A stretch of 37,988 bases of DNA, from positions 1-37,988 of the IMG/VR virus record IMGVR_UViG_3300031999_000093; one strand, written 5' to 3'. The notes beneath the pieces are model-generated. The model was not told where the DNA came from and made no database searches. It worked only from the letters and a program-made list of their open reading frames with translations. Within the stretch, counting starts at the first letter, position 1, and every line of letters starts with the position of its first letter. Of this stretch, positions 3,493 through 18,560 are shown piece by piece. Origin of the DNA: a virus. The position numbers were made by a program, and so were the translations under genes.

Positions 3493-3707
3493 GGGTGTCA
3501 CCAAAAGTGTACCCAATCTCAGTACGGGCATCGCGGACATCGCGCCGTATGCGTGTTCCATCGCGGTTTTCCGCTCGTATCGTACCCTTTGCGCCTATCG
3601 CGGGCACACCCATTGCCCTGGAAGGAATAGTCCCCTCGCTATTTCCCCGTGAAAATGACATTATCTTTGGAATGTGTTCTCAAAGTGTACCCACACGGAG
3701 GTGATTG
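3493..3707. other. Intergenic region before int with direct repeats (possible att arm or regulatory sites)
   Basis: I see no convincing gene in these 215 bp. AAAGTGTACCCA occurs at 3504-3515 and 3682-3693, at the two ends of the gap. Between them, ATCGCG recurs near 3530, 3539, 3560 and 3597. The final copy of the 12-bp repeat is 4 bp before the integrase ribosome-binding site (GGAGGTGA). These repeats could be integrase or excisionase arm sites or an operator for int. No att core can be named without a host sequence. Confidence 0.45.
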
Positions 3708-5289: not shown

Positions 5290-5318
5290 TTGCAAATACC
5301 CCGTGCACGCTGTATCCT
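5290..5318 (+). promoter_or_regulatory. Promoter with palindrome copy 1 (ATAC-N3-GTGCAC-N3-GTAT at 5296-5315)
   Basis: TTGCAA (5290-5295), a 17-bp spacer and TATCCT (5313-5318) form a sigma70-like promoter. A 20-bp palindrome fills the spacer and its right end gives the TAT of the -10. The predicted start, 7 bp after the -10, is 5325, the A of the ATG of the next gene. This suggests a leaderless message, although CCTCC in the gap is not a usable Shine-Dalgarno. A factor binding the palindrome would cover or remodel the promoter. Confidence 0.65.
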
Positions 5319-5324
5319 CCTCCC

Positions 5325-6167
5325 ATGGCCAACCCCTTCCGCGAGATCCGCGGCGACTTCCTGCGGATGGACCTCCATGAGTTCGGCGAGCTCTATGCGT
5401 TCTTCGAGCGTATGCCCTCACTCGTGCGCCCCGCCGTTGCGCAACTTCTGAACGACTTGGCCTTTCGTGGCAGGGAGGTGGCGATCGACACGTTGGGCAA
5501 ACGCGTGATCATTCGAAACCGCAGGTTTGCCCTCTCGCGCATGCGCGTGCAAAAGACAGGCGCCAAGCCCATCGCTCAGCAGCAGGTCATTCTCGGGAGC
5601 ATCATCACCATAGGCAAGGGCGGGCACGTCAGCCAAGACGGCTGGGCGAGCCTGCAACGTGGAGGCGACGCCACTCGCAATCGAGTGCTGACGCTGGCAG
5701 CCCGCGGGGGGCAGAAGGAAAAACAGGCAAGTGCCAGCTCGAGGCTCAAGCCGAGCACCGATTTCCCCAAGCCCGAGGACTGGGGCGACATTGCAAACCC
5801 TCGCTCGCGCATGCAAGCGATGATCCGTGTGATGTCCGAGTCCAACGTATACGGCAGAGTCTTCATGCTGCCCAAGGGACAGAGCGGCGGCATGACTCCA
5901 GGGCTCTATCGTGTGGAGAAAGGGCGCTATAGGGACTATCGACACAGCAAGCACAGCGGCATAAGGACGGGCAACTGGCACCTCATCTCAGGGAGAACGC
6001 GTCCCGTGCCCAAGATCCAGATGCTGCAACGCTTCGGCAAAGCCCCGCGCGGCCAGCGTTGGCCCTGGATACAGACGACAGTCAAACAGCTCATCAAGAC
6101 AGCACCCCTTGCGAAGATGTGGAGCGCAGCCATGGACAGGGTGATGGCGAATGCGAAACCAAAATAA
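5325..6167 (+). CDS. Putative phage tail-completion / minor tail protein, GpZ-like (280 aa)
   Basis: Starts at the predicted transcription start of the upstream promoter. The N-terminal region (LVRPAVAQLLNDLAFRGREV, then LGKRVIIRNRRFALSRMRV) resembles the lambda GpZ / HK97-gp10-like pattern, where an alpha segment of paired small residues leads to a basic ..IRNRRF.. strand. A Gly/Arg-rich middle follows, then a C-terminal helix pair (WPWIQTTVKQLIKTAPLAKM). These proteins help finish the tail end or the head-tail joint. Position upstream of the terminase is unusual, as GpZ normally sits with tail genes. The family call is from pattern and is not certain; it could be another virion or early-late protein. 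Confidence 0.45.
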   Translation: MANPFREIRGDFLRMDLHEFGELYAFFERMPSLVRPAVAQLLNDLAFRGREVAIDTLGKRVIIRNRRFALSRMRVQKTGAKPIAQQQVILGSIITIGKGGHVSQDGWASLQRGGDATRNRVLTLAARGGQKEKQASASSRLKPSTDFPKPEDWGDIANPRSRMQAMIRVMSESNVYGRVFMLPKGQSGGMTPGLYRVEKGRYRDYRHSKHSGIRTGNWHLISGRTRPVPKIQMLQRFGKAPRGQRWPWIQTTVKQLIKTAPLAKMWSAAMDRVMANAKPK

Positions 6168-6290
6168 AAAGGTACTGTGACACGATTCGCAATTGTAGAG
6201 CGCGTCATGTCGCGACGTCCGGACAACTGGACCTGCGGCGGGCGGCGTTAAGGTTAAGCGCCGGCGCTTGCTTAATCAGTTCCCTCGATG

Positions 6291-6310
6291 ATACCCTGTG
6301 CACGTGGTAT
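6291..6310 (+). promoter_or_regulatory. Palindrome copy 2 (ATAC-N3-GTGCAC-N3-GTAT) upstream of small terminase
   Basis: GATAC CCT GTGCAC GTG GTATC, with both outer arms extended by one base pair. It lies in the 160-bp gap 6168-6327. A -10-like TATCAG (6308-6313) overlaps its right end, but the -35 position (TCGATG) is poor, so a promoter here would need help or be weak. Otherwise this gap holds nothing I can identify. Confidence 0.6.
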
Positions 6311-6327
6311 CAGCGAAGTCCAGCACC

Positions 6328-7074
6328 GTGAGCAAGGCCGAGTTCGCGCGCCTGGCCAAGGTCAGCAAGCCCGCGGTCTCCATCGCCCTGCGGAAGGGCC
6401 GAATCACCGCCGAACGCGATGGCAGCATGAATCCCCAGCGCCCCGAGAACGCCGCGTATCTCACCACGCGAAAGCGGCAACGCCGTCAATCCAGTCCTGG
6501 CCCGGGCGGCGGGAAGCGCGCGCCGGCCAAGCAGAAACCCTCGCGGTCGGAGCGCCGGCGGAAGCCGACCAAGGGGAAACCCAGGCAGCACATCGCCCGG
6601 TCGGCCGGCGGGCGGAAGAAGCAGAGAGCGCAGATCGCGGAGAGCGGTCCGCAGAAGGGCGCGCTGCAGATCGACGGTGAAACCTTCCACATGGCCGACC
6701 TGCGCCACACGATCGCGAAAGCCAACAAGGCGGAACAGGAGATCGCCATCCGCCGCGGCGAGCTCGTGGAACGCAGGGACGTCCACAACTTCATGGCCCG
6801 GCTCTACCAAGTGCACGCATCGCAACTGAAGACCTACGCGGAGAAGATAGGCCCCGACGTGGCCGCGGCGTTCAAGCTCACCGATGCCGAGACCCCGCGG
6901 ATCCAGGAGATCGCAGGCACGGACATGCTGCGCGTGCTCAGTCAAATCAAACGCGAGATGAACGACTACCTGGAGAGCATCGGGAACGAGGAGCTGGAAG
7001 ATAGACCTAAACCGAAAACCAAGCCAGTGGCGCGGAAACGGAAGAAACCCCGAGCCCGAGAGGCCAAGCAATGA
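6328..7074 (+). CDS. Terminase small subunit, putative (248 aa)
   Basis: GTG 6328 is preferred; upstream GTGs at 6298 and 6304 lie inside the palindrome. Residues 1-25 form an HTH: VSKAEFARLAKVSKPAVSIA followed by LRKGRI, as in Nu1-like terminase DNA-recognition domains. A long basic, low-complexity linker (residues about 50-115, rich in K/R/P/G) follows. The C-terminal helical part (LRHTIAKANKAEQEIAIRRG, ERRDVHNFMARLYQVHA) is typical of small terminases that meet the large subunit. It would recognise the packaging site and load the motor. It ends with an ATGA overlap into a LAGLIDADG gene, which separates it from the large subunit. Confidence 0.8.
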   Translation: MSKAEFARLAKVSKPAVSIALRKGRITAERDGSMNPQRPENAAYLTTRKRQRRQSSPGPGGGKRAPAKQKPSRSERRRKPTKGKPRQHIARSAGGRKKQRAQIAESGPQKGALQIDGETFHMADLRHTIAKANKAEQEIAIRRGELVERRDVHNFMARLYQVHASQLKTYAEKIGPDVAAAFKLTDAETPRIQEIAGTDMLRVLSQIKREMNDYLESIGNEELEDRPKPKTKPVARKRKKPRAREAKQ

Positions 7075-7505
7075 GTGAACAATCTGGAGCGATTTCTTGG
7101 CGTGATGTTGCTTGGTATTTCGAGGGTGAAGGTTCCGTAGGCTATTATAAAGCCTCTGCCAGGAAGAGACACATTCTCTTTGTCCGCTTGAGTTCGAGCA
7201 ACAAGGCTTTACTCGATGAAATAAGAAACCAACTCATCCCCGATGCTGCCGTTTCAATTTCAACTAAAGCCGGTTCAACAAGCGGTGGCGTCCTTCATAA
7301 GAAGAGCGGTTTCAATCTTGTATTGTGCTGCGATAAGGCACTGATTTTCCTCTCAGGAATCGCGAAGCACCTGCCTGATTGCTCTGAAAAATTGCCGCAA
7401 GTCAAACTCGCACTATCTATCGGCAAGTGGACCGATGGCTTGGGGGCTGGACAAATGAAAACCATGAAACACCTCCCCTACCGGGATCCCCCGCAGCGCG
7501 CATGA
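7071..7505 (+). CDS. LAGLIDADG homing-endonuclease-like protein inserted between terminase genes (144 aa)
   Basis: VAWYFEGEGSVGYYKASARK is a clear variant of the LAGLIDADG block (LAGFxDGEGS), with E14-G15-E16-like acidic residues for metal. A central beta-rich part (HILFVRLSSSNKALLDEIRN, then KSGFNLVLCCDKALIFLSG) matches the family's DNA-binding saddle. Only one motif is seen, so it would act as a homodimer. It is AT-richer than both neighbours. It overlaps each by 4 bp in an ATGA junction, so it exploits translational coupling without breaking the genes. The last dozen residues (KHLPYRDPPQRA) return to GC-rich codons, as if retained from the old terminase leader. Confidence 0.75.
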   Translation: MSEQSGAISWRDVAWYFEGEGSVGYYKASARKRHILFVRLSSSNKALLDEIRNQLIPDAAVSISTKAGSTSGGVLHKKSGFNLVLCCDKALIFLSGIAKHLPDCSEKLPQVKLALSIGKWTDGLGAGQMKTMKHLPYRDPPQRA

Positions 7506-9550
7506 CCCGCACCGATCGGGAGTTCTTCCGCAAGGAGCTCGAGCTCCTCCCCGACGACGCCCCCCCGCGGCTGATCTCTGAATACGTCCAGGGCCGCCGC
7601 ATCATGCCCCCTGACACCCCGTTCCCCGGCTACTGGTCCAATGCGCGCACTCCCTACCTCATCGAGCTGATGGACGACATGAGCCCTTACTCTCCCGTGC
7701 AGCACTCGATCACGATGAAGGCGCGCAAGCTGGGATGCACCGCTGCGGCGGAGAACGTGGTCGCCTACTGGGTCGACGCCAACCCCACGGCCGTGGAATA
7801 CGTGACGGCCACCGACGAGCTTGCCGAGGACTGGAGCACGCGCCGCTGGGACCCCGTGGTCGATTCCCTGGGCTTCCGCCATAAGATGGCCGCGCAGACG
7901 AATCTCGCCAAGTCCCGCCGCACCGGTGACAAGGTTTTCAAGAAGGAGTTCGTCGGCGGCTACCTGGACATCATCTCCTCGAGCTCGAAGAAGGCCACCC
8001 GCGCCGGTGACATCCGCGTCCTGGTCCGGGATGAAATCGACGGCCGCCCTCCCCTTCTGGTCTCGGGCGAAGGCTACTGGACGGAGGTGAACTACGGGCA
8101 CACCGCGAGCTGGGGCGCGCGCAAGAAGGTCATGGACTTCAGTTCCCCGACGACAACCGAGACCTCGGAGATCGCCCGCCTGTACGCCCTGGGCGACTGC
8201 CGCAAGTTCCTCGTGCCCTGCCCATTCTGCGGACACCGCCCGGCGAAGGTGATCTCCCTCCCGGGCATGCCCACGGCCAAGATCCGCCAAGACTCCCGCG
8301 ACCAGGAACTCGTGCATCTGGCCGACGCCGCCGCGCACGGAATCAAAGGCGAGACCAATGGCGGCGTGTTCCTCCGCGCCTACTACCAGTGCGAGTTCTG
8401 CCACGAGGCGATATTCGAGTACCAGAAAACGGACATGCTCGCCGGTGGCCACTGGGAGCCGACGAAGAAATCGAGCGACCCGACCCTGCGCTCCCGGCAG
8501 ATCTCCTCCCTGTATTCCCCGTTCGGCATGCTCTCGTGGAACGATTACTGGAGGCTGTACATGGCAAGCCTCGAAACCCCCGACGGCCCTCGGGCCTTCA
8601 CCAACCTCTATCGCGGCCTGCCCTACGCGGAGACCGGAGCGCGCCCTGACCTGCGCAAGGTCATCGCCCTTCGTGGGACCTACAAGCAGACCGAGGTCCA
8701 GAAAGGCGTCATCTATCTCACGGCAGCCGTCGACGTCCAGCGCGGAAAGGACAAGCCCGAGTCACCCGATGAGGGGCCGCGCCTGGAGATGGAGGTCCTC
8801 GGCCATGGCCGCGGGTACAAGACATGGAGCGTGGACTATCGAAAGTTCCACGGCTCGATCGACGATCCCTACGCCGGCTCCTGGGAGAAGCTAGACGCGT
8901 GGGCCACCACGGGCGCTCCGGGGGGAGGAAGCGGCCTCCTGTACACGCGCGCGGATGGAGTGCGGTTCACACCCGCGGTCATCCTCATCGACTCCTCGGA
9001 CGGAAAGGTCATGAACATCGTCTACGGCTTCTGCGGGCGCTGGCGATCCACCTTCCCCTGCAAAGGCGCGAAGACCATCGTGGCAGACGCCGATCGCCGC
9101 GAGAAGGGTGACATCGCAGGCACGGCATACAAGCGGTGGCGAATCGGGTCCACGGGCGACGTCACCCAACCCCTCTACGAGATCAACACCCAGTTCTACA
9201 AGGCGCAGTTGTACAACAAGCTGGGCACGGTCATGCGCCGACCGATGGAGCCGCAGGCGAACGGCTTCCAGGACTTCCCCCGGGATTACGACGACGAGTA
9301 CTTCGCGCAGCTCATCGCCGAGGAGCAACTCTCCGATGGCAGCTTCAAGTCGATTCGTGCCAGAAACGAAGCCCTGGACTGCCGCGTGTACAACATGGCA
9401 GCGGGGGACATCTACCTCATGGGCCTGGTGGAAGGCATGAGGCGTGCCGCGCGTGAGAAGGGCGCCACCGTCCGCCAAGCCGAGGAGATCGGCTCAAACC
9501 ACGCCCTTGCGTGGCTGGAGTCAAGGATTCAACCCAGGGCGAGCGGCTGA
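7502..9550 (+). CDS. Terminase large subunit, lambda GpA family (682 aa)
   Basis: Start ATG 7502 is coupled to the LAGLIDADG stop; an in-frame extension to 7427 is less likely. Residues 73-86 carry the divergent Walker A of this family (KARKLGCTAAAENVVAYW), followed by EYVTATDELAEDWSTRRWDP. Walker B is VRDEIDG near residue 178. Two CxxC pairs (CPFCGH near 240, CEFCHE near 296) make a zinc knuckle usual in GpA. From about 405 the nuclease domain begins (TAAVDVQ), with IDSSDG and ALDCRVYNMAA. The N-terminal ATPase drives DNA into the prohead and the C-terminal nuclease cuts the concatemer. Length is in the GpA range. Confidence 0.94.
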   Translation: MTRTDREFFRKELELLPDDAPPRLISEYVQGRRIMPPDTPFPGYWSNARTPYLIELMDDMSPYSPVQHSITMKARKLGCTAAAENVVAYWVDANPTAVEYVTATDELAEDWSTRRWDPVVDSLGFRHKMAAQTNLAKSRRTGDKVFKKEFVGGYLDIISSSSKKATRAGDIRVLVRDEIDGRPPLLVSGEGYWTEVNYGHTASWGARKKVMDFSSPTTTETSEIARLYALGDCRKFLVPCPFCGHRPAKVISLPGMPTAKIRQDSRDQELVHLADAAAHGIKGETNGGVFLRAYYQCEFCHEAIFEYQKTDMLAGGHWEPTKKSSDPTLRSRQISSLYSPFGMLSWNDYWRLYMASLETPDGPRAFTNLYRGLPYAETGARPDLRKVIALRGTYKQTEVQKGVIYLTAAVDVQRGKDKPESPDEGPRLEMEVLGHGRGYKTWSVDYRKFHGSIDDPYAGSWEKLDAWATTGAPGGGSGLLYTRADGVRFTPAVILIDSSDGKVMNIVYGFCGRWRSTFPCKGAKTIVADADRREKGDIAGTAYKRWRIGSTGDVTQPLYEINTQFYKAQLYNKLGTVMRRPMEPQANGFQDFPRDYDDEYFAQLIAEEQLSDGSFKSIRARNEALDCRVYNMAAGDIYLMGLVEGMRRAAREKGATVRQAEEIGSNHALAWLESRIQPRASG

Positions 9551-9572
9551 AAGACGGCCGATTTCACCCCCC

Positions 9573-9602
9573 TTGTAAAATACGCCGTGCACGCTGTATC
9601 TT
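9573..9602 (+). promoter_or_regulatory. Promoter with palindrome copy 3 (9580-9599)
   Basis: TTGTAA (9573-9578), 18 bp, TATCTT (9597-9602). ATAC GCC GTGCAC GCT GTAT fills the spacer. The ATG at 9609 is again 7 bp after the -10, so a message from here would be leaderless. There is no Shine-Dalgarno between the -10 and the ATG (TGATCC). The architecture matches copy 1 almost base for base. Confidence 0.65.
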
Positions 9603-9608
9603 TGATCC

Positions 9609-9902
9609 ATGGGCGATCCTGCCTACTCCAACCTCCCTCAGACCACGGCAACGCGCTACGCCGCGCACTACACCTACTGGCAGACGATCCTCACCAACCT
9701 CCAGGCCCAGCTCACCGCGCGCTCACTCGACCAGCCCATCGACTCCTACTCGTTCGACTCGGGGGAGGGCAGGCAGAGCACGACGCGCATGAGCATCGAC
9801 CAGCTCATGGCGGCCGTCGAGCGCGCCGAGCGCATGGTCCGCTACTACGAGATGAAGCTCTACGGCCGCGGGCTCATGTCCCTCGTGCTGAGGAGGAAGT
9901 GA
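9609..9902 (+). CDS. gpW-like head-tail joining protein, putative (97 aa)
   Basis: A helical start (TRYAAHYTYWQTILTNLQAQ) is followed by a beta hairpin around SYSFDSGEGRQSTTRMS, then a helix LDQLMAAVERAERMVRYYEM-type segment ending in a basic tail. Helix-hairpin-helix order with the phrase ..SGEGRQS(T)T/R.. is the gpW-like pattern. gpW binds the portal from below and ends packaging. The position between terminase and portal is where lambda W sits. The start codon is exactly where the upstream promoter would start transcription. It ends in TGATG with the next gene. Confidence 0.65.
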   Translation: MGDPAYSNLPQTTATRYAAHYTYWQTILTNLQAQLTARSLDQPIDSYSFDSGEGRQSTTRMSIDQLMAAVERAERMVRYYEMKLYGRGLMSLVLRRK

Positions 9903-10108
9903 TGCACAGCCCGATGCGGACCGCGATGATCATGACGACGATGCTGGCCATGGCGGTAGGCGGAATGATGGATCCCGAGATGCCCGACGTCGCCGGCCAT
10001 CCTCCCCGCCCCAAGGGCTACGGCGTGCACCTATCCAAGACCGAGCGCCGCGGGAAATCCCCCGCCGAGCTGCAGCGCCTGCGCGCCGAGAGGATACGCG
10101 ATGGCTAA
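9902..10108 (+). CDS. Small Met-rich protein, unknown function (68 aa)
   Basis: ATG overlaps the previous stop (TGATG) and the gene overlaps the portal start by 8 bp. The N-terminus is extremely methionine-rich: MHSPMRTAMIMTTMLAMAVG, which could be one membrane segment or a signal-like helix. The second half is basic and helical (LSKTERRGKSPAELQRLRAE). No known domain is recognised. The tight overlaps support translation. It may be a minor head component or just an accessory peptide. Confidence 0.55.
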   Translation: MHSPMRTAMIMTTMLAMAVGGMMDPEMPDVAGHPPRPKGYGVHLSKTERRGKSPAELQRLRAERIRDG

Positions 10109-11882
10109 GCGGCGTTCCTTGTTTGCTGGAGTCCTTGACCTCATTGCCGATCGATCGGAGTTTAGGAAAACTCAGCGCGCCGCTCTGAAGCAGATGGCGC
10201 AGGATGCCCTCCGGGATCCCCGCGCGATTCAGGCCCCCACGCCCCAGGCCATCGCCAGCGGCTACACCACGGCCCTCTCCCGATCGGGCGGCGCGAAATG
10301 GATCGGCGGGCTCTCCTCCCCCTATGCCTCGCACGTCATCGATCACTGGCAGATGCGCCAGCAAGCCCGCGATGCCGTCCACGACAGTCAGGTCGCGCGC
10401 GCGATCGATTTCCGCTGGGCTGAATCCGTCGTGGGTACCGGCTTGCGCTGGGCTCCCGAACCCGACACGGAGCTCCTCGGCATTTCACCTGAGCAAGCCG
10501 ACGCCTGGGCGCAGATAGCCGCCCGCCGCTTCCACCTCTGGGCAAGTTCCAAGGCCCAGCATCGTGCGGGGAACATGACCTGGTACCAGTCGCAGTTCGT
10601 CTACGAACTGGCGCAGCACCGGGACAACGACATGTTCGCGCGGTTCTTCTACAACCCCGCGCGCGCCGATCTCCTCAACCCCCTCCAATGGGATTTCATC
10701 GACCCGAACCAGATCCGGGGCGACGCCTGGACCTCCACCTCCTTCTATGCCGGACACCCCGAGGACGGGATCACGCGGGACGCCGCGGGCGTGGAAACCT
10801 CCTACAAGATCTGGGTCCAGCGCCCGGGCGAGTTCAAGTTCGACGAGGTCACCATTCCGCGCATCGGCGAGAAAAGCCGGCGCATCTTCATGATCCACGG
10901 CTACAGCCCCGAGTATGCAGGCCAGGGACGCGGCTTCTCGCGCATCGCCCACGCCATCCAGGAGTTCGAGAACATCACGGATTTCAGCGCGGCCCAGATC
11001 AAGAAGGCGATCGCGCAGTCAAACCTCGTGCTCACCGCCGAGAGCGAGACCGACGCGCCCTCGGGCAACCCCTTCGACTCCCTGGGCATGCCCGCTGCAG
11101 GACCCGCCTCACTCCAATATGGAACCCTGCCCATACCGTCGCCCTCTGCGGCGAATGTGACCCCCGCGAGCGTGTCCTACACACCGATCGCCGAGGCCAC
11201 GTTGGCCGAACCCGGAACCACCATGGTCTTCGGCCTCGATGGCAAGAACAAGCTCAAGCCTTTCCTCAACACGTCGCCCGTCGACAGCTTTGACACCTTC
11301 GTCGATTCCTTTGCCGCCTACCTCTCGGCAGCCAACGGCATCCCCATCGAGATGGTGCTCATGCGGTTCAACGCCAACTATAGCGCGTCCCGTGGGGCCC
11401 TGGTCCTGTTCTGGCGCAATTGCCTCATGTGGCGCCAGGAGATGGCCACTGACTACCTGTACCCGACCGTCGAGATGTGGCTCTCGGGGGAAATCGCGGC
11501 GGGAACGATCCAGTGCCCCGGGTGGAACGATCCCGTGCTCAAGGCAGCCTGGATGATGGGCCGGTGGGTAGGCCTGCCCATGCCGAACATCGATCCCGCG
11601 ATGACGGCGAAGGCAGACCAGCTCTATTGCGAGTTGGGCGCGCAGGACCTGGACGAGGTGGCCCGCAACCTCAACGGATCCAGCGGACGCGCCAACCGCG
11701 CCAAGCTCGCGCGCCAGTTCGCGGAGCTTCGGGAGGCCGGCCCGGTACCGTGGGCACAAGCGAAAGCCGCGCCTCCCGGGGCGGATGGTGAACCCCCGTC
11801 GGACGAGAAACCCGAAAAGCCGGGCGAAAACGGAAACGGCTCGCGGAAGCCGCGCAAACTCCAGAGAGTACCAGCGAGGTAG
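10101..11882 (+). CDS. Portal protein, lambda family (593 aa)
   Basis: The length and order match the lambda gpB family: an N-terminal helix region (RSLFAGVLDLIADRSEFRKT), a wing with RDNDMFARFFYNP, then PLQWDFIDPNQIRGD, and a long central part with GYSPEYAGQGRGFSRIAHAI and IPIEMVLMRFNANYSASRGA. The last two blocks are well conserved in this portal family. The C-terminal 60 residues are Pro/Lys/Gly-rich and likely disordered. Twelve copies form the DNA entry channel of the head. No internal protease site can be read by eye. Stop TAG overlaps the start of a 21-bp tandem repeat. Confidence 0.93.
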   Translation: MAKRRSLFAGVLDLIADRSEFRKTQRAALKQMAQDALRDPRAIQAPTPQAIASGYTTALSRSGGAKWIGGLSSPYASHVIDHWQMRQQARDAVHDSQVARAIDFRWAESVVGTGLRWAPEPDTELLGISPEQADAWAQIAARRFHLWASSKAQHRAGNMTWYQSQFVYELAQHRDNDMFARFFYNPARADLLNPLQWDFIDPNQIRGDAWTSTSFYAGHPEDGITRDAAGVETSYKIWVQRPGEFKFDEVTIPRIGEKSRRIFMIHGYSPEYAGQGRGFSRIAHAIQEFENITDFSAAQIKKAIAQSNLVLTAESETDAPSGNPFDSLGMPAAGPASLQYGTLPIPSPSAANVTPASVSYTPIAEATLAEPGTTMVFGLDGKNKLKPFLNTSPVDSFDTFVDSFAAYLSAANGIPIEMVLMRFNANYSASRGALVLFWRNCLMWRQEMATDYLYPTVEMWLSGEIAAGTIQCPGWNDPVLKAAWMMGRWVGLPMPNIDPAMTAKADQLYCELGAQDLDEVARNLNGSSGRANRAKLARQFAELREAGPVPWAQAKAAPPGADGEPPSDEKPEKPGENGNGSRKPRKLQRVPAR

Positions 11883-11923
11883 GGTCGCGAGATGGAGAGG
11901 TAAGGTCGCGAGATGGAGAGGTA
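11883..11923 (+). repeat. 21-bp tandem duplication carrying two 3-codon mini-ORFs
   Basis: A 20-bp unit GGTCGCGAGATGGAGAGGTA occurs at 11883 and at 11904 with one extra A between, and its first four bases recur at 11924 just before the next gene's ATG. Each unit includes ATG-GAG-AGG-stop (MER), ending in TAA then TAG. GGAGAGG also serves as the ribosome-binding site of the gene at 11928. The repeat probably arose by recent slippage. Confidence 0.8.
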
Positions 11924-11927
11924 GGTC

Positions 11928-12275
11928 ATGGCAGAAGTACCCCCGGTCCCGAAGACGACGAAAGATGCGGTCATTGCGATCTGGTACAAGATTTTCAATG
12001 GCCTATCGGCGGCGGTCGAGGAGACGCGCTGCCTGGCGAAAGATACCGCCGGCCGGGTCCAGACAATCGAGGGAGTACTCCCGACCCTCTGGACGCGCGA
12101 GCAGCACGAGAAGATGCACGCGGAATACATCGCCGAGTGCGAGGCCAAGGCTAAGGAGAAACAGGAACACGGCGAGCGCAGGAAGATGAGCCGGCGCGAC
12201 GTGATCATGCTCCTCCTGGTCGGCATCGGCACCCTCGCGGGGATCGCCTTCGGGGTGATCGGGATGGCGAAATGA
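11928..12275 (+). CDS. Small membrane protein with C-terminal TM helix, possible holin-like (115 aa)
   Basis: A soluble N-terminus (MAEVPPVPKTTKDAVIAIWY, then helices to about residue 85, many charged) leads to one TM segment VIMLLLVGIGTLAGIAFGVI near the C-terminus, with RRKMSRRD before it. This N-in/C-tail pattern resembles small phage membrane proteins annotated as holins or lysis accessory proteins. It lies just upstream of the lysis block, now split from it by a GIY-YIG gene. Function is inferred from topology and location only. Confidence 0.6.
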   Translation: MAEVPPVPKTTKDAVIAIWYKIFNGLSAAVEETRCLAKDTAGRVQTIEGVLPTLWTREQHEKMHAEYIAECEAKAKEKQEHGERRKMSRRDVIMLLLVGIGTLAGIAFGVIGMAK

Positions 12276-12913
12276 TTACCGGCGCGCGCCTCTGGGGGAT
12301 CATCTATCGCGCAACGAATCTCTCCAATGGGAAAGTCTATATCGGACAATCAGTAGAGTCTTTGTGCGAGAGAAAGAGCAAGCACCTGAATGAGGCTCGG
12401 AATGGGAAAGACTCATATTTCGCACGAGCCCTCCGTGAGTATGGGATCGCCGGTTTCAATTGGGGAATCATCCACAACATCCAAGCGGATGATCGCGTTG
12501 TTCTCAAAAGAAATCTGAACGATCTGGAAATAAAAGAGATCAGAGCGCACGCATCAATGAATAGGGATCGCGGATACAACCTGACTATCGGCGGGGCTGG
12601 ATCAATCGGATTCCGAATGTCACCAGAGAGTAGAGAGAAAATGCGGAAAGCAAAGTTGGGAGTGCCACGATCAATGGAGGCGCGGAAAGCTGTTGGCGAT
12701 GGCCATCGGGGATTGCATCACAGCGAAGAGAGCAAAAGAAAACTATCCGAATCAAAGATTGGCTCCCGAAATCCTATGTTCGGCAGAGCCATCTCGGAAG
12801 ATCATCGGCGCCGGCTTTCACTTGCTCAGAAAGGCAGGATCGTATCTGAGGAAACCAGGTGGCGCCAAAGTGAAGGAATGAAAAGAGCGTGGGCAAGAAG
12901 GAAAGCTGCATGA
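12272..12913 (+). CDS. GIY-YIG homing endonuclease with NUMOD3-type repeats (213 aa)
   Basis: The GIY-YIG block reads WGIIYRATNLSNGKVYIGQS, followed by a conserved Arg (ERKSKHL) and later LNDLEIKEI with the catalytic Glu. The C-terminal half has three NUMOD3-like DNA-binding repeats (SPESREKMRKAKLG, SEESKRKLSESKIG, SEDHRRRLSLAQKG). It is AT-rich and inserted between GC-rich genes. It overlaps both neighbours by ATGA. Its first residues MITGARLW nearly repeat MITGAKLW, the start of the downstream peptidase, in DNA as well (16 of 24 bases). It would cut an intronless or uninvaded allele and copy itself in. Confidence 0.9.
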   Translation: MITGARLWGIIYRATNLSNGKVYIGQSVESLCERKSKHLNEARNGKDSYFARALREYGIAGFNWGIIHNIQADDRVVLKRNLNDLEIKEIRAHASMNRDRGYNLTIGGAGSIGFRMSPESREKMRKAKLGVPRSMEARKAVGDGHRGLHHSEESKRKLSESKIGSRNPMFGRAISEDHRRRLSLAQKGRIVSEETRWRQSEGMKRAWARRKAA

Positions 12914-13500
12914 TCACCGGGGCCAAGTTGTGGAACGACAGAAGCACATATTTTCGACAAGACAACAATCCCACAGAGACCATGCTAAAGAAAATGGGCG
13001 GGAAGTGGCTCGAAACCTGCGGACCCACGGCTGCCGCGAATTGCCTCGCCGCCCTCGGCTACGATCTCACCATCACCTGCCCCGGGGGATGGGTGCCGCA
13101 GCCCGAGGAGATCCTCGAGGATTTCCTGAACGACCCGCGCAACTACCCGGACATGCGGGCGGTGCGCTCCAACCTCGATCCCGCGAGCATCCCCGGCAAC
13201 CGCGTGCCGCAGTACTACCCGCTGGCGGTCTCCCGCGTGTTCAAGGCGCTGGGCAATTACGTCGAGAGCCATTCCTTCGACGCGCTGGTCGACCACCTGT
13301 CCAAGGGCATGGCCGTCCAACTGTGCCTCATGACGCCCGGCCACTATATCGCGGCGGTCGCCTATGACGATGAGACTCACGAGGTCCTCTACCGCGACCC
13401 CTGGCCCGAGCGATTCGCGGACGGGAACGGATTCAACCGCAGAATGAGCGCAACGGAGTTTCAGGCGAACACGAAAAGCTTCGCCATCATCTATCTGTAG
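12910..13500 (+). CDS. C39-like cysteine peptidase, probable phage lysis enzyme or virion hydrolase (196 aa)
   Basis: ATG 12910 overlaps the endonuclease stop; an earlier GTG-type reading at 12889 is inside that gene. TCGPTAAANCLAALG carries the papain-fold nucleophile Cys, and TPGHYIAAVAYDD has the catalytic His. YRDPWP supplies the Asp, as in C39-like peptidases. There is no signal peptide. Such domains are used as endolysins or peptidoglycan endopeptidases in some phages, and its place before a holin-like gene and spanins supports that. C39 peptidases also process leader peptides, so the substrate is not certain. Confidence 0.75.
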   Translation: MITGAKLWNDRSTYFRQDNNPTETMLKKMGGKWLETCGPTAAANCLAALGYDLTITCPGGWVPQPEEILEDFLNDPRNYPDMRAVRSNLDPASIPGNRVPQYYPLAVSRVFKALGNYVESHSFDALVDHLSKGMAVQLCLMTPGHYIAAVAYDDETHEVLYRDPWPERFADGNGFNRRMSATEFQANTKSFAIIYL

Positions 13501-13510
13501 GGAGGGGACA

Positions 13511-13765
13511 ATGAAAGAGTTCTTCAAGAAGCTGGCCGAAGCAATCCAGGACCAGGGCGGCGGGGTCGATCTGAAGTTGCTGTTGGGCGGCCCCATCGTC
13601 ATCGCCGCGGTCATCTTCGTGATCATCACGCGCGACCTCGCGACCTTCGCGGTGATCGCTGGTCTGGGGACGACGCTCATCCTCGGCTCACTCGCCGGCG
13701 ACCAGGGCAAGCTCAACGTCACCTCGAGCCCGAGCGATTCCTCGGCCGGCATCCCCGGGAGCTGA
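13511..13765 (+). CDS. Holin-like small membrane protein (84 aa)
   Basis: GGGAGGGG precedes the ATG. MKEFFKKLAEAIQDQ gives a charged amphipathic N-terminus; then two hydrophobic stretches, GPIVIAAVIFVIITR and FAVIAGLGTTLILGSLAG, and a Ser/Pro-rich polar tail. Two TM helices and a short length fit class II holins. It follows the peptidase and overlaps the spanin-like start (TGATG). A holin would open the inner membrane at the lysis time. Sequence family is not recognised. Confidence 0.65.
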   Translation: MKEFFKKLAEAIQDQGGGVDLKLLLGGPIVIAAVIFVIITRDLATFAVIAGLGTTLILGSLAGDQGKLNVTSSPSDSSAGIPGS

Positions 13766-14265
13766 TGGGTGTGGCGTGGTGGAAGAGTGCGCTCGCTGGC
13801 TTCGCGGCTGCTATTGTGCTCTGTGCTGGGCTTGGCTTTATCGTCCTCACCCGCTCAGGCACAAAGTCCGAGCTCACCGCCGCCCTCGACGGATACCGAG
13901 CAAGCCAGTCAGCCGACTACGCCGACCGAAGGATTCGTATCCGGGACATTGAGGCCCTTACTCGCGGAGGCATTGACGAGCTCCGAAGCCTCAGACGCGA
14001 ACTCAGCGACGCTTCAAGAGCGGATCGACTCCGACGCGAGGCAGAAGATCGAAGACGACAAGCAGAGGCAGATCGAAGCCGAGCAGAGGCTGAGCGACGA
14101 CGCGGCGAGGAAGAAAGAGCAAGAGGACTCAGCGACGGCATACGCGCGGTTATCGCTTCGAGTGCAAACACTACAGAGCTGCTTCGACGCGTTCTCTTTG
14201 AAGTTGACCGATTTCTCGGGTTCGGAGGAGGAGAAGCAGGCGCGGGCACTGGCGGCCCTGAATGA
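13765..14265 (+). CDS. Inner-membrane spanin-like protein (166 aa), overprinted by another frame
   Basis: ATG overlaps the holin-like stop (TGATG). An N-terminal TM (ALAGFAAAIVLCAGLGFIVL) is followed by a long coiled coil rich in Arg/Glu/Asp (residues about 60-130) and a C-terminal globular-like end (LSDGIRAVIASSANTTELLR). This is the i-spanin (Rz-like) plan. The reading frame shares almost all its DNA with the frame at 13769-14377. Both look like real membrane proteins. Spanins join the inner and outer membranes at the end of lysis. Confidence 0.7.
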   Translation: MGVAWWKSALAGFAAAIVLCAGLGFIVLTRSGTKSELTAALDGYRASQSADYADRRIRIRDIEALTRGGIDELRSLRRELSDASRADRLRREAEDRRRQAEADRSRAEAERRRGEEERARGLSDGIRAVIASSANTTELLRRVLFEVDRFLGFGGGEAGAGTGGPE

Positions 14266-14377
14266 TATCCAGGCCGGGGCGCGCAGGATGGAGCGGCAGA
14301 ATCGGGCGTTGAAGTGGGCTTGCGGGATCCTCGCGGTCGCGACTGCGGGGGCCATAACCTGGGCGGCAGTGAAGTAA
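13769..14377 (+). CDS. Second spanin-like protein in the +1 frame (202 aa), signal peptide and C-terminal TM
   Basis: GTG 13769 has GGGAG at a 7-bp spacing, better than the ATG 4 bp upstream. The signal sequence is SLASRLLLCSVLGLALSSSP with AQA as likely cleavage; no good lipobox is seen. A Pro/Ser/Thr spacer (residues about 30-55), a coiled coil (about 75-130), and a C-terminal TM (WACGILAVATAGAITWAAVK) follow. The gene ends 10 bp before the next start, while the frame at 13765 ends 122 bp earlier. That spacing argues that this frame is used. Whether it is the outer spanin, a u-spanin-like protein, or something else is open. Confidence 0.6.
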   Translation: MWRGGRVRSLASRLLLCSVLGLALSSSPAQAQSPSSPPPSTDTEQASQPTTPTEGFVSGTLRPLLAEALTSSEASDANSATLQERIDSDARQKIEDDKQRQIEAEQRLSDDAARKKEQEDSATAYARLSLRVQTLQSCFDAFSLKLTDFSGSEEEKQARALAALNDIQAGARRMERQNRALKWACGILAVATAGAITWAAVK

Positions 14378-14387
14378 GGGGGAAACG

Positions 14388-14780
14388 ATGAAACGGGAAA
14401 TGATCGAGATCGGGACCACGATCCGCGTGGAGAACGGCCCGGCGCGGAAGACTGCGGTCGCCACGAAGGAGCTGCTCGACGATGCGGTCACAGCGAGCCA
14501 CTACAAGGTGGGCGAGCGGGACGCACTGGGGAAGGTGATCGTCCTGGGCGAGCTCATGACGTACCTGGACTACCTGGGGGATCTGGTCTGGTACATCTAC
14601 AAGATCGGTGAGGTGGGCATCAATGCCGAGGGCCGGGTGATCTTCCCCGACTCCCCGTTCATCGTGGTGGCGAACCCCGAGGACACGGTAGCCGTGAAGA
14701 CCGAGGAGCGCTGGCTCCCCGCGGGCATCGAAACCACCAAAGAGCGGGCGCTCACCGCCGCGCATCTCCTGGAGGACTGA
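14388..14780 (+). CDS. Phage protein of unknown function (130 aa)
   Basis: Preceded by GGGGGAAACG. No signal peptide. A strand-rich start (IEIGTTIRVENGPARKTAV), a helical middle with LLDDAVTASHYKVGERD and LMTYLDYLGDLVWYIYKIG, then a strand pair ending LPAGIETTKERALTAAHLLE. Soluble, acidic. It sits between lysis and fibre-like genes, 1 bp before the next ATG. I do not recognise a family. Confidence 0.65.
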   Translation: MKREMIEIGTTIRVENGPARKTAVATKELLDDAVTASHYKVGERDALGKVIVLGELMTYLDYLGDLVWYIYKIGEVGINAEGRVIFPDSPFIVVANPEDTVAVKTEERWLPAGIETTKERALTAAHLLED

Positions 14781-14781
14781 C

Positions 14782-15156
14782 ATGCCGTTCATGAACGATT
14801 TGCTATACGACCTCCTGCTGGCGGGATTCTCGGGCATTGCCACGCGCCTTGACATCTGCTCGGCGGAACCCGCGACGTACACCGAGGCGACCTCGACCTA
14901 CACCCTGGGCAACAAGACGGGCATCACCTACCAGGCGCCGGCGGATCGCACACCGAACGGCCGCAAGATCGCGGTGGACGCCATCAGCGCCGGATCGGTG
15001 ACCGGCACGGGCCTGGCCTCGCACTGGGCGATCACGAAGCCGACCGCGACCACGGCGCTGTACGCGGCAAAGACGCTCTCAGCCTCGCAGAACGTGACCT
15101 CGGGAAACTCGTTCACATTGGCAAGTTTTGACGTCGGCGTGCCGGACGCGACGTAA
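14782..15156 (+). CDS. Putative virion surface/accessory protein (124 aa)
   Basis: Starts 1 bp after the preceding stop. An amphipathic start (NDLLYDLLLAGFSGIATRLD) leads into a beta-rich domain (ATYTEATSTYTLGNKTGITY, then RKIAVDAISAGSVTGTG, HWAITKPTATTALYAAKTL). Repeated Thr/Gly/Ala strands look like a small phage adhesin or a decoration domain. It ends FTLASFDVGVPDAT, a form I associate with small phage structural proteins. Unsure. Confidence 0.6.
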   Translation: MPFMNDLLYDLLLAGFSGIATRLDICSAEPATYTEATSTYTLGNKTGITYQAPADRTPNGRKIAVDAISAGSVTGTGLASHWAITKPTATTALYAAKTLSASQNVTSGNSFTLASFDVGVPDAT

Positions 15157-15159
15157 GCC

Positions 15160-15792
15160 ATGGCCGATACTAAGATTTCCGGTCTTGCCGCCGCCTCGGC
15201 GGTCGCGGACGCGAACGAGATCCCGATCAACGAGGCGGGCACGACAAAGAAGATCACCGCGCTGCAATTGCTCGCCTATTCCGGGGACTCGATCCAGAAT
15301 GCATCGGTCGCGGACCAGGTCATCAGCGCGACATCGGCGTATGTCACGAACTCGAACCTCGCCGTCCCTGCCGGGAAGCTCCGCATCAAGACAGTGTTCA
15401 AGTGGCGGATTACGATCACGAAGACAGCGGCAGGCACGACGGCCGGATGCGCGGTGCTCTTCAAGCTCGGGACTGGCGGCGTGATCGGCGACGCGACGAT
15501 CCTCACCTTCACCTTCGGGACGCCGACTGGCGTGGTGGACGCCGCGGTCATAGAGGTGACGGTCACGATTCGCGGGCCACTCTCCGCATCGTGCATCGCA
15601 ACGGGCGTAGCGGTACTAACGCACAACCTCGACGCGACAGGTTTCTCGACTCTGCACACCGAAGTCAAGCAGGTCACCTCCGGGACCTTTGACGCGACGA
15701 CCGCGAACCTGATCGCGGGACTCTCGATCACGACGACCACCTCATCGGCCTGGACCGTGACCTCGATAGTCGGAGAGGCAAAGTACCTCTGA
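15160..15792 (+). CDS. Tail-fibre/tailspike-like virion protein (210 aa)
   Basis: The start ADTKISGLAAASAVADANEI and PINEAGTTKKITALQL is the common N-terminal anchoring motif of phage tailspikes and fibres (ADTKISxLP.A....). The rest is a predicted beta sandwich with repeated T/V/G strands (LRIKTVFKWRITITKTAAGT, TEVKQVTSGTFDATTANL). It would attach to another virion part and present a host-binding domain. It lies far from the tail module, in the block between portal and protease. Confidence 0.7.
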   Translation: MADTKISGLAAASAVADANEIPINEAGTTKKITALQLLAYSGDSIQNASVADQVISATSAYVTNSNLAVPAGKLRIKTVFKWRITITKTAAGTTAGCAVLFKLGTGGVIGDATILTFTFGTPTGVVDAAVIEVTVTIRGPLSASCIATGVAVLTHNLDATGFSTLHTEVKQVTSGTFDATTANLIAGLSITTTTSSAWTVTSIVGEAKYL

Positions 15793-15817
15793 CGACAAAG
15801 CTGACAGGGAGGCGTAC

Positions 15818-16207
15818 ATGAAGCGATTCCTTCTCGCGGCCCTCATGGTGCTCGTTGCACTCGGGGCCTGTTCTCAGACGAAAATGATTGTTGGCTCGAC
15901 GATCACCGTCACCTGGGACGCGCCCGCGCTGGGCACGATTCCCCCTGCAGAGATCGCCTACGAGGTGTTCGCTCAACCCAGACCGAGCGGGACCGTGGTG
16001 CTCGTGGGCACCGTCACCGCCATCGAGCAGGTCGTCACGTTCACCGTGGAGGGGCCATATCGCATCGGCGTGCGTACGAAGCGCACTACGCCTGACGCAA
16101 CGGTCCTGTACAGCGCCTACTTCTGGGCCGACGTGGACGGATCGACGCCGTGGTACGTGGTCTACTACAAGAGCCCGGACAGAGTAGATCGCGTGAGAAT
16201 CAAGTGA
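15818..16207 (+). CDS. Predicted lipoprotein with fibronectin-III-like domain (129 aa)
   Basis: AGGGAGG precedes the ATG. The signal KRFLLAALMVLVALGAC has a clean lipobox LGA-C at Cys18. The mature domain has the strand pattern STITVTWDAPALG, EIAYEVFAQP, VTFTVEGPYRIGVRT, typical of an FnIII-like beta sandwich. FnIII-like modules occur in virion surface proteins, but a lipobox implies membrane attachment in the host. It may modify the cell surface in late infection. Function is inferred. Confidence 0.68.
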   Translation: MKRFLLAALMVLVALGACSQTKMIVGSTITVTWDAPALGTIPPAEIAYEVFAQPRPSGTVVLVGTVTAIEQVVTFTVEGPYRIGVRTKRTTPDATVLYSAYFWADVDGSTPWYVVYYKSPDRVDRVRIK

Positions 16208-16278
16208 GGATCGTCTACAAACGCCTTCGACTCGTCAGCGTAAAGAGCCTCAAGGACTTGCGGGACAAGGGGATGTAG
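16204..16278 (+). CDS. Possible micro-ORF (24 aa)
   Basis: GTG overlaps the lipoprotein stop (GTGA). The peptide VRIVYKRLRLVSVKSLKDLR is very basic. No obvious homology or motif. Coupling favours translation, but it could be chance. It ends 11 bp before the next gene, which has its own ribosome-binding site (GAAAGAAGG). Confidence 0.3.
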   Translation: MRIVYKRLRLVSVKSLKDLRDKGM

Positions 16279-16289
16279 GGGAAAGAAGG

Positions 16290-18044
16290 ATGGGTTTTAC
16301 CTTCATTGCATCTGCAACAGGTTTCTATAGCCCCTCTGGCACGATTCTTGATTGTTCTTCTACTCTCAACATTCAGGAAGGTGACTTAATCATAGCGGCT
16401 GCCGCCTGGGAAGACGCTACTGCTGTTGCCACAATAGCAGAAGATGATGATGATAACGCCCTTACGATGTTGACACTGGCAGACGATACAGCTAACTTTC
16501 AAAGATTAGGTTATAAGATCAATGCGGCGGCAAATGTTGCTGCTACTTTTCGAATGACTCTAGGCACCGCACGTGCATATCGTTCTATTACAGTTCTTCA
16601 ATTCAGGCCCGATGCCGGAGAAACAGTCACATTCGATGCGGGACCAAGTTCTGCTTCTGCGGTAAGTTCTGCTGTTCAGTCGGGAAACATATCTACGGCG
16701 GGAAATGATGAAGTTGTTGTAGCATTTGAAAAACAATATTCTTCTACTACCGAGTCGGATTGGCTAATTGGAGATGTAGCTGCTGACGGAACAGTAGAAA
16801 ATCAGAGTTGGGCATGGGGATGGTATAAGCTATTTACTACTCCGCAGACTGACATACATGGGCAGTTGACATTGGGTGCTACTCCTGCATGGGTTTGCGA
16901 CATTATTGCCATCAAATCCGAGGCGGCGGGGGGCGGCGGCGGGCATATCGAAATCCAGGACCGATACTCGATCATCCAGCTTGAGACGGCCGACGCCCTA
17001 CTCACGGAGGACGCCAACGCACTTCTGACCGAGGCGGCTGTCGAGGCGACTACCGACGATATCCTGCTTGAGGACGGCACGTCGTACTTGCTCCTCGATG
17101 CCAACGACGCGCTTACCGCCAACGGGCTCGACGTCGGCGCTCCCGCACTCGCCGCACCCGTCATTACACAGATTCACGCGCTGGCCGCCGCCGAACTCGC
17201 CACGACTCCCACACTCGCCACGCCCGCGCTCTCGCAGGTCCACGCGCTATCAGGTAATGGCATCGCCGTGGGCGCGCCCGTACTCGGCACCCCTGCCCTC
17301 TCGATCCAGATCGATCTCACAGCCAACGGCATCACGACCGGAGTGCCAACCCTTGGCGCCTCGACTCTCGCCCAGGTCCATGCACTCGGCGCCACTGGCC
17401 TCACCACTACCCCAGCGCTCGGCACGCCTGCGATCACTCAGACTCACGCTCTCGCGGCCACGGGGATCACCGCGAGCCCGACGCTCGGCACACCGGCTCT
17501 GAACCAGACGCATGTTCTTTCGGCAGCGGGTATCTTCACGACTCCCACCCTCGGGCAGCCAGTCATCACGCAACTACATATCCTCGGGACGGCCGAACTC
17601 GCCGCGGGGGCTCCCGCGCTCGGGACGCCGGTGCTCTCCAGCGGCAGCGGACTCACCGCCGACCCGATCACCGTAGGCACTCCATCTCTCGGCACCCCAG
17701 CCCTCACCCAGGTTCACGCGCTGGAGGCCGAGGGGATCACGGCGACGCCCGTGCTGGCCAACGCAGTCTTCAACCAGGTTTGCGCTCTCGTGGCGGATGG
17801 CGTGGCGACGGGATTGCCCTCACTCGGGGTCCCGGAGCTCGCGCAGATCCATGCCCTCGTAGCGCAGGGGATCATCGCGGGACCGCCCGCGCTTGGCGAG
17901 CCCAAGCTGAATGAGGCCATCACCATTCCGCGACTGTGGGCGATCCTCACTGGCACGCCAATTGCCGGCGTGGAGTTCTCACTCCCCGCGCCGGTCGTCG
18001 GGATCCGGGTGACGGGCACACCCATCGTGGAGGCCGAGATATGA
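16290..18044 (+). CDS. Mosaic fibre/adhesin-like virion protein with 12 tandem 22-23-aa repeats (584 aa)
   Basis: Residues 1-210 form a beta-rich domain coded by AT-rich DNA (FIASATGFYSPSGTILDC, GDLIIAAAAWED, ITVLQFRPDAGETVTF). A Gly run (AAGGGGGH, near residue 212) then marks a sharp switch to GC-rich DNA. A short acidic repeat area (LLTEDANALLTEAAVEATTD) follows. Residues about 274-546 contain twelve units of LxATGIxxxPTLGTPALxQxHA. The end is LWAILTGTPIAGVEFSLPAP. Such repeats in phage virion proteins probably form an extended beta solenoid or shaft. The compositional break indicates that the N-terminal domain was recently acquired. Confidence 0.72.
   Translation: MGFTFIASATGFYSPSGTILDCSSTLNIQEGDLIIAAAAWEDATAVATIAEDDDDNALTMLTLADDTANFQRLGYKINAAANVAATFRMTLGTARAYRSITVLQFRPDAGETVTFDAGPSSASAVSSAVQSGNISTAGNDEVVVAFEKQYSSTTESDWLIGDVAADGTVENQSWAWGWYKLFTTPQTDIHGQLTLGATPAWVCDIIAIKSEAAGGGGGHIEIQDRYSIIQLETADALLTEDANALLTEAAVEATTDDILLEDGTSYLLLDANDALTANGLDVGAPALAAPVITQIHALAAAELATTPTLATPALSQVHALSGNGIAVGAPVLGTPALSIQIDLTANGITTGVPTLGASTLAQVHALGATGLTTTPALGTPAITQTHALAATGITASPTLGTPALNQTHVLSAAGIFTTPTLGQPVITQLHILGTAELAAGAPALGTPVLSSGSGLTADPITVGTPSLGTPALTQVHALEAEGITATPVLANAVFNQVCALVADGVATGLPSLGVPELAQIHALVAQGIIAGPPALGEPKLNEAITIPRLWAILTGTPIAGVEFSLPAPVVGIRVTGTPIVEAEI
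17111..17928 (+). repeat. Twelve degenerate 66-69-bp repeats encoding a 22-23-aa solenoid unit
   Basis: Each unit has a conserved GTPAL-like centre (often CTCGGCACNCC in DNA) followed by Q.HAL. Units are mostly 22 or 23 residues and differ by one residue in the strand before PTLG. They are divergent at the DNA level, so the array is not a recent amplification. Confidence 0.8.
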
Positions 18045-18385
18045 TTCAGTTCCGCGATCCGGCCGGCAACGTCGTCACCGATGGCTTCCCTGTGGTAGGG
18101 ACGAGTCTTCGCCTCAGCACGACGATCGGCGTGAGCATATCCGGCGCCACAAGCGTCCAGTTCGGCTACCGCAAGCCCGGAACGACATCGATTGCCTACT
18201 GGACGGCCGTGGTCGACGATGTACCGACCGGCGCCATCCACTACGACGTGACGGCAGCCCAGCACGACACAGCAGGCGCATGGACGGCCTGGTACAAGGT
18301 CGTGCAGTCGGACGGGAAGGTGCTCATGATCCTCGCGCAGTCGTGGACATCCGTGATCGAAGGTAGTCCGCCCGGGAGCGTGTAG
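18041..18385 (+). CDS. Small Ig-like virion protein, BppU-N-like (114 aa)
   Basis: ATG overlaps the previous stop (ATGA at 18041). The order of strands FRDPAGNVV, TTIGVSISGATSVQFGYRKP, WTAVVDDVPTGAIHYDVTAA, GAWTAWYKVVQSDGKV resembles the N-terminal beta-sandwich of baseplate-upper proteins and related phage Ig-like domains. It is the last gene of the portal-downstream block and likely accompanies the adhesin-like protein before it. Family call is by pattern. Confidence 0.6.
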   Translation: MIQFRDPAGNVVTDGFPVVGTSLRLSTTIGVSISGATSVQFGYRKPGTTSIAYWTAVVDDVPTGAIHYDVTAAQHDTAGAWTAWYKVVQSDGKVLMILAQSWTSVIEGSPPGSV

Positions 18386-18465
18386 AGGGGCGTCGCCCTG
18401 GCGCCCTGGCCGTGCGACTTTCCTCCCTTCCCGCACAGCCTTTCTTATCCCCCAACGGGAGATAT

Positions 18466-18494
18466 AGGAAAATACCCCGTGCACGACGTATCTT
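18466..18494 (+). promoter_or_regulatory. Palindrome copy 4 (18472-18491) with -10-like TATCTT
   Basis: ATAC CCC GTGCAC GAC GTAT, then TATCTT at 18489-18494. The -35 position (AGGAAA) is poor. The predicted start is 18501, 3 bp before the first ATG of a mini-ORF relay. The gap 18386-18503 also has a GTGCG/CGCAC inverted repeat (18412-18434) that is too loose for a clear terminator. This would start the protease-capsid unit. Confidence 0.55.
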
Positions 18495-18503
18495 GCCCTC
18501 AGA

Positions 18504-18560
18504 ATGATTCCGAGAACCGTCATGGAAAGGTCAACCGTGTAGATGCGCGGGAACATGTAG
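18504..18560 (+). other. Two in-frame mini-ORFs forming a TAG-ATG relay before the protease
   Basis: ATG 18504 gives MIPRTVMERSTV then TAG (18540-18542), directly followed by ATG giving MRGNM and TAG (18558-18560), directly followed by the protease ATG. All three are in one frame. The sequence TGTAGATGCGCG occurs twice, at 18538 and 18556. It could couple protease translation to a leader by reinitiation, or limit its level through suppression. Confidence 0.6.

Follow-up and report, generated by a model that had tools for sequence, protein, structure and literature searches.

What controls the virion genes of an uncultivated phage in which one 20-base-pair (bp) palindrome recurs at the starts of several late genes? 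The question is raised by IMG/VR virus record IMGVR_UViG_3300031999_000093, which was analysed over its full length of 37,988 bases (the window) and in which the palindrome ATAC-N3-GTGCAC-N3-GTAT overlies predicted promoters of the packaging and virion module. An initial annotation had taken it for an operator or activator site of a single regulator. We propose, with a probability of about two in three, that the palindrome serves as operator for a dimeric repressor encoded by the phage, predicted from sequence comparisons to be a single-domain Xre-type helix-turn-helix (HTH_3) protein of ~60 residues, which would silence the late transcription units.

When the window was scanned for the pattern, four exact copies were found, each without a mismatch and each where the initial annotation had located it (table 1), whereas the first-order Markov expectation was 1.5e-5 exact matches across the window. 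Allowing up to three mismatches added one match, at 31424 within a tail gene (three mismatches), and none of 100 dinucleotide shuffles reached five matches at this tolerance; the reversed control pattern had no match in the whole window. The palindrome was also the word of its spacing with the highest count in the window and the sole palindromic word among the 20 most frequent listed, many of the others probably deriving from tandem repeats of one tail gene. Further copies across coding regions and a lack of conservation in related phages had been named in advance as observations that would speak against a regulon; neither was observed, since the window's coding regions held no additional copies and related phages had kept the sites.

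The relatives, which are uncultivated phage contigs and mostly fragments, were gathered by motif scans of viral contigs, by profile searches with the terminase and portal, and by a search from the last tail gene. The site was present in the window and in six further phages (20 sites in total), and in five of these six (L018, L052, L053, L054/G004, and G011) it was borne by the same genes, namely those for the terminase small subunit, the gpW-like protein, and the protease. In L018, whose terminase is 54% identical, the order is terminase, site ATACCCCGTGCACGTGGTAT, gpW-like gene, and portal; the profile searches yielded many further relatives, of which L052, L053, and L054 (terminase ~77% identical) carry the variant CTAC-N3-GTGCAC-N3-GTAG/T at the same genes. 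The scan with the CTAC variant yielded G011, which bears the site and has a terminase 48% identical, and the search from the last tail gene yielded G013, with a site at the HTH/nuclease-like region. Among distant relatives (terminase ~55% identity or less), palindrome matches were no more numerous than those of the reversed control, and the protease used as a search query found no relative. The motif scans matched 42 (ATAC..GTAT) and 47 (CTAC..GTAG) viral contigs, and nearly all of the matches were discarded as background because they lay in open frames or unrelated repeats; of the newly found contigs, L018 and L122 alone were true relatives. The late modules of the window (5325-37710) and G004 (16301-47224) are syntenic, whereas their early regions have nothing detectable in common and share no regulator.

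Across the 20 sites, the consensus was TAC-N3-(G)TGCA(C)-N3-GTA, with a near-invariant core of TAC-N3-TGCA-N3-TA. Positions 3, 4, 9-12, 18, and 19 of the palindrome were invariant, pairs 2, 3, 4, 8, 9, and 10 were complementary in 18-20 of the 20 sites, and the outermost pair was C:G in eight sites and A:T in five. Such pair complementarity around a palindromic core is what binding by a symmetric protein dimer would require, in agreement with the earlier view that the sites suit one dimeric regulator. That view was also supported in that related phages retain the sites at the same virion and packaging genes.

The sites also obey a position rule when the centre of the palindrome is measured from the predicted start codon. 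All five terminase sites are centred at -3.5. At the gpW-like, protease, and nuclease-like genes and the counterparts of the window gene starting at 5325, 8 of 11 sites are centred between -19.5 and -22.5, and the remaining three, all at gpW-like genes, at -30.5 (G003 and G004) and -31.5 (G011, with a Shine-Dalgarno leader). The three sites at HTH operons (G004, G011, and G013) are centred at -45.5 or -46.5. In the class near -20, the TA of the -10 box comes from the right arm, and the left arm is often bordered by a TTGYAA-like -35 box. At the terminase genes, the -10 box is the left arm itself (TACNNT in 5/5), a -35 box of TTGCTT, TTGTTA, or TTGCCC is found 17-18 bp upstream, and the right arm contains the start codon (GTG; in G011 ATG), the proteins beginning MV(S/A). 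Repressor operators typically overlap the -10 box and start codon, the spacer, or the -35 box, as these sites can, and such a range of positions is difficult to square with activation. Of the two functions first offered for the palindrome, the operator fits; the activator was not supported, since a site at -3.5 to -22, on top of the -10 box and start codon, suits a repressor.

Several details of the initial annotation changed in the process. Its placement of copies 1 and 3 in the gap between a -35-like and a -10-like box was correct. The right arm, said to provide a -10-like TAT at all four copies, does so at copies 1, 3, and 4; at copy 2, the better -10 box is in the left arm. The copies do lie on predicted promoters of the virion module, but not always just before the gene, as had been noted for all four: the proposed terminase start is inside copy 2, and the ATG after copy 4 opens a mini open reading frame (mini-ORF) of 12 codons. 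Exactly 6 nucleotides (nt), with no Shine-Dalgarno sequence, separate the -10-like box from the ATG at copies 1 and 3, and the transcripts are therefore predicted to be leaderless.

Which protein would bind the site is suggested by the relatives. Three of them, G004, G011, and G013, have an operon that encodes an HTH_3 protein of 59-61 amino acids (aa) and whose -35 box (TTGACG or TTGACA) directly adjoins a palindrome; the HTH gene is first in G011 and G013 and is followed by a lipoprotein-like gene, and the G004 operon opens with an 86-aa ORF. The palindrome of G013 also lies in the promoter spacer of a divergent nuclease-like gene, so that this single site could serve both divergent promoters, like the lambda operators at PR and PRM. 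The three early HTH proteins are mutually 38-41% identical and match PF01381 (HTH_3) with 38.7, 34.5, and 27.9 bits, above the Pfam gathering cut-off of 23, which places them in the Xre/HTH_3 family; their nearest solved structures in PDB include HigA-2 (6e-10) and the P22 C2 repressor (8e-6). The HTH was the sole domain matched, and no C-terminal dimerisation or self-cleavage domain was found. Strong homologues (E 1e-33 to 1e-37) were confined to the three records that bear the operator and extend over this region, distant relatives reaching at best 2.5e-7. These phages share with lambda and P22 both palindromic operators over (predicted) sigma70-type promoters and an operator beside the promoter of the putative repressor itself, and we consider the ~60-aa early Xre-type protein the best candidate binder. 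A scan with the pattern GTGCACNNNRTAGTTGAC for the HTH promoter matched 48 contigs, of which only G004 and G011 were real. The nuclease-like gene had no Pfam match, its G013 copy had no NCBIfam match, and its PHROG matches to endonucleases or Holliday resolvases were weak (E 0.0035-0.07); a VRR-NUC label for it was dropped.

On this basis, we propose that every unit of the virion module (the 5325 gene, the terminase, gpW-like/portal, and protease-capsid-tail, and in relatives the nuclease-like gene) would have its own sigma70-type promoter, usually leaderless, and that one operator would overlie each promoter, covering the -10 box and start codon at the terminase and the -35/-10 spacer at most others. 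With the repressor bound, RNA polymerase would be shut out and the late genes would stay silent as in a prophage; once the repressor is lost, the units would come on together. At the promoter of the putative repressor itself, the operator adjoins the -35 box without covering it, which would allow or favour expression of the repressor, as with lambda CI at PRM. We infer that the window's phage carries such an HTH gene beyond the right contig end. A bolder version, which we regard as doubtful, is that the lineage silences its virion programme unit by unit through a ~60-aa single-domain repressor with operators inside leaderless late promoters (the terminase operator including the -10 box and start codon), and that a second, late HTH protein, encoded by some relatives, may counteract it at these operators, so that the switch would be genome-wide and not one immunity region.

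Several observations weigh against repression by the early HTH protein. No homologue of it was found in the window, so its gene has to be assumed off the contig; the window stops at 37988, ~280 bases beyond the last tail gene in common and close to the place where the operon ends in relatives, and this absence is therefore uninformative. The promoter boxes of the HTH operon are near consensus, which makes the proposed autoregulation from -46 less certain. At the G004 counterpart of the 5325 gene, the promoter is kept (-35 TTGACC) and the palindrome is lost. G011, G004, and G003 have a second Xre HTH gene immediately upstream of the protease operator, and its product might bind instead of the early protein or in addition to it. 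If so, it could exert Cro-like feedback on the same operators, and its position next to a site and its membership of the same HTH family would agree with that; we nevertheless find this quite unlikely, since L073 encodes a near-identical recognition helix yet has no such palindrome, and the window lacks the gene although the site there is kept. Finally, -35 strength at gpW-like promoters averaged 3.6 of 6 with an operator and 4.5 without, which would suit an activator, although the difference was not significant (p=0.15).

An activator with a role like that of Mu C or P2 Ogr, turning on the virion units after early expression, would be in keeping with the fact that all window sites serve late genes and with the tendency of operator promoters to weak -35 boxes (TTGYAA and worse; the G004 promoter that lost its site has TTGACC). 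It is unlikely, however, because centres at -3.5 and about -20 put the site over the -10 box and start codon, and we know of no common activator mechanism that acts from -3.5, -20, and -31 alike. MerR-type activation requires spacers of 19-20 bp, and no such spacer around the dyad was found in the window; the spacers were of 16-18 bp, the best-scoring ones in the window of 17-18 bp (scored range 16-18 only; copies 1 and 3 were read directly). Binding by a host protein, by which the late genes would answer a host signal, could account for phages that share a late module and sites but no early regulator, as the window and G004 do; it is improbable given that the site abuts the promoter of a phage regulator operon in three phages and that it is missing from distant members of the same terminase/portal family. 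The initial annotation had put forward the window's own 63-aa HTH and ribbon-helix-helix (RHH)-like proteins as binders. P22 Arc and other RHH repressors occupy palindromes located between the -35 and -10 boxes, and visual inspection of the window shows RHH-like genes, one of which matches an Arc-like PHROG weakly (E 0.055). These proteins are nonetheless very improbable binders: no palindrome lies near their own promoters, the divergent RHH-like promoters carry TGGGTAT repeats, the 63-aa protein is of HTH_17 type, and neither kind has a homologue in G004, which has the same sites. We thus favour the early Xre-type repressor.

We also scored promoters of the form TTGACA-17/18-TATTAT upstream of gpW-like genes without the palindrome in the wider family. 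At least 9 of 12 was reached by 61%, with the promoter ending 4-9 nt before the start codon, compared with 2% of shuffled upstream controls at the same threshold, a contrast somewhat inflated because the control used one start and the observed value was the best of up to four. Near-consensus predicted leaderless sigma70 promoters were widespread upstream of the gpW-like and terminase genes in relatives L060-L099. From these upstream sequences, the late promoter at the start codon looks like an old family trait, and the palindrome like an addition in one clade.

The features of the window are compiled in table 1, in which gene calls follow PHROG and Pfam matches and promoters were predicted from sequence. 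The 97-aa gpW-like protein had no Pfam match. Further genes recognised by PHROG or Pfam encode the major capsid protein, contractile sheath, tape measure, and baseplate hub.

Table 1. Palindrome copies, predicted promoters, and genes in the window
Feature	Position	Strand	Remarks
Integrase	3705-4904		PHROG/Pfam matches
Predicted promoter 1	5290..5318	+	TTGCAA (5290-5295), 17 bp, TATCCT (5313-5318), 6 nt, ATG 5325; predicted leaderless, from sequence
Operator copy 1, ATACCCCGTGCACGCTGTAT	5296..5315	+	Fills -35/-10 spacer; centre -19.5 from start codon of 5325 gene
Conserved late gene, 280 aa	5325..6167	+	No assigned function; 47% identical to G004 67-876
Predicted terminase promoter	6268..6297	+	TTGCTT (6268-6273), 18 bp, TACCCT (6292-6297), 6 nt, GTG 6304; same layout in L052, L053, L054, L167
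Operator copy 2, ATACCCTGTGCACGTGGTAT	6291..6310	+	Left arm is -10 box, right arm contains proposed terminase start codon; centre -3.5
Terminase small subunit (phrog_57)	6304..7074	+	Proposed start GTG 6304 (MVSAKSS...); alternative GTG 6328
Terminase large subunit (phrog_15)	7427..9550	+	
Predicted promoter 3	9573..9602	+	TTGTAA (9573-9578), 18 bp, TATCTT (9597-9602), 6 nt, ATG 9609; predicted leaderless
Operator copy 3, ATACGCCGTGCACGCTGTAT	9580..9599	+	Spacer position; centre -19.5
Small protein, 97 aa, terminase-portal interval	9609..9902	+	gpW-like by position and size only; orthologues L018 (33%), G004 (49%)
Portal (PF05136, lambda family)	10101..11882	+	
Operator copy 4, ATACCCCGTGCACGACGTAT	18472..18491	+	Centre -22.5 relative to ATG 18504
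Predicted -10 box and spacing	18489..18503	+	TATCTT (18489-18494), then 9 nt to ATG 18504; 9-nt spacing also at protease of G003, G004, G011
Mini-ORFs in frame with protease	18504..18560	+	End TAG-ATG twice; 12-codon mini-ORF opens at ATG 18504
Head maturation protease (phrog_53)	18561..19949	+	True start 18561

At the protease start, an 18-bp tandem duplication, TGTAGATGCGCGGGAACA (repeat 18538-18577), creates the in-frame mini-ORFs, and G011 is without this insertion; the TAG-ATG ends may permit reinitiation. The late module also holds genes for a GIY-YIG homing endonuclease (12272-12913, after the portal) and an HNH endonuclease (27337-27741, before the tape measure gene). Just upstream of the terminase, a conserved block, AAGGTACTGTGAC...GTCATGTCGCGAC (6169-6217), is shared with L052, L073, and G004. 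Because AGTCATGTCGCGACT is precisely where contigs G003 and G004 terminate, the block is probably the cos packaging site. The palindrome itself was ruled out as a terminase (cos) site because it recurs at gpW-like, protease, and HTH genes and the cos-like element is this separate block.

The region 2463-2590, between two RHH-like genes, contains strong divergent promoters (TTGACA-17-TATTAT leftward and TTGACA-17-TAAAAT rightward) and TGGGTAT/TGGGTCT direct repeats at 11-bp spacing; the rightward gene (GTG 2583) also looks leaderless, and the region is probably a separate lysogeny switch. Between the integrase and copy 1 (4901-5235), 12 GTAAG/CTTAC words fall within ~330 bp (window mean 0.3 per 360 bp), together with AGTA and CT microsatellites, and G004 has CTTAC and CT runs at the matching place; the cluster is possibly an att site or replication iterons. 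The repeat AAAGTGTACCCA stands twice before the integrase gene (3503-3520 and 3681-3698), as a possible operator or integrase arm site. A tail gene contains 120/360-bp tandem repeats, SICADPSGNIWA...GDIYKCPSGSTTFTGVGG (35026-35812), and possibly encodes a variable adhesin. A putative DNA adenine methyltransferase gene, read by eye on the minus strand at 1-720, is truncated by the left end of the record.

The sites mark the limits of the late transcription units and point to likely starts for four genes, and they can serve as a marker for finding this uncultivated phage lineage. In most temperate phages studied so far, it is the early promoters that are guarded, and control over the late genes is indirect; this holds for lambda and P22, whose repressors act at early promoters and whose late genes are controlled indirectly (Q antitermination). 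If the proposed repression is true, it would be a different way to keep a prophage silent, in which the late promoters are guarded directly. The likeness to lambda CI and P22 C2 lies in the HTH_3 protein, the palindromic operators over sigma70 promoters, and the operator upstream of the repressor's own -35 box, whereas here the operators are on late promoters, the protein has ~60 aa without a C-terminal dimerisation or cleavage domain, and the operator is of 20 bp with a GTGCAC core. MqsA/HigA/NadS-type HTH antitoxins are the best matches of the early HTH proteins (HigA-2 in PDB; NadS and MqsA in NCBIfam), but all of these matches fell below the curated NCBIfam cut-offs and the Pfam cut-off for MqsA, the scores against MqsA being 17-22 bits in Pfam (cut-off 30) and 19-36 bits in NCBIfam (cut-off 61.8), no toxin partner was recognised for the early HTH proteins, and all three HTH genes lie in an operon whose promoter abuts a late-gene operator.

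We found no paper on a phage operator palindrome with GTGCAC in the open-access literature. In phages Mu and P2, four or so late promoters share one site for C or Ogr, located at or upstream of -35, whereas the sites here are at -3.5 to -31. Streptomyces phage phiC31 has conserved inverted repeats that serve as palindromic repressor sites at many promoters; this arrangement is alike, and the sequence and protein family probably differ. The stoperators of cluster A mycobacteriophages, numerous asymmetric sites at which a monomeric repressor acts on elongation (PMC9283540, PMC6550527), are similarly dispersed over the phage genome. The sites described here differ from stoperators in being few, palindromic rather than asymmetric, and placed exactly on promoters. 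Taken together, repression through multiple operators is a known kind of phage control, and this regulon, its operator, and its layout are apparently new.

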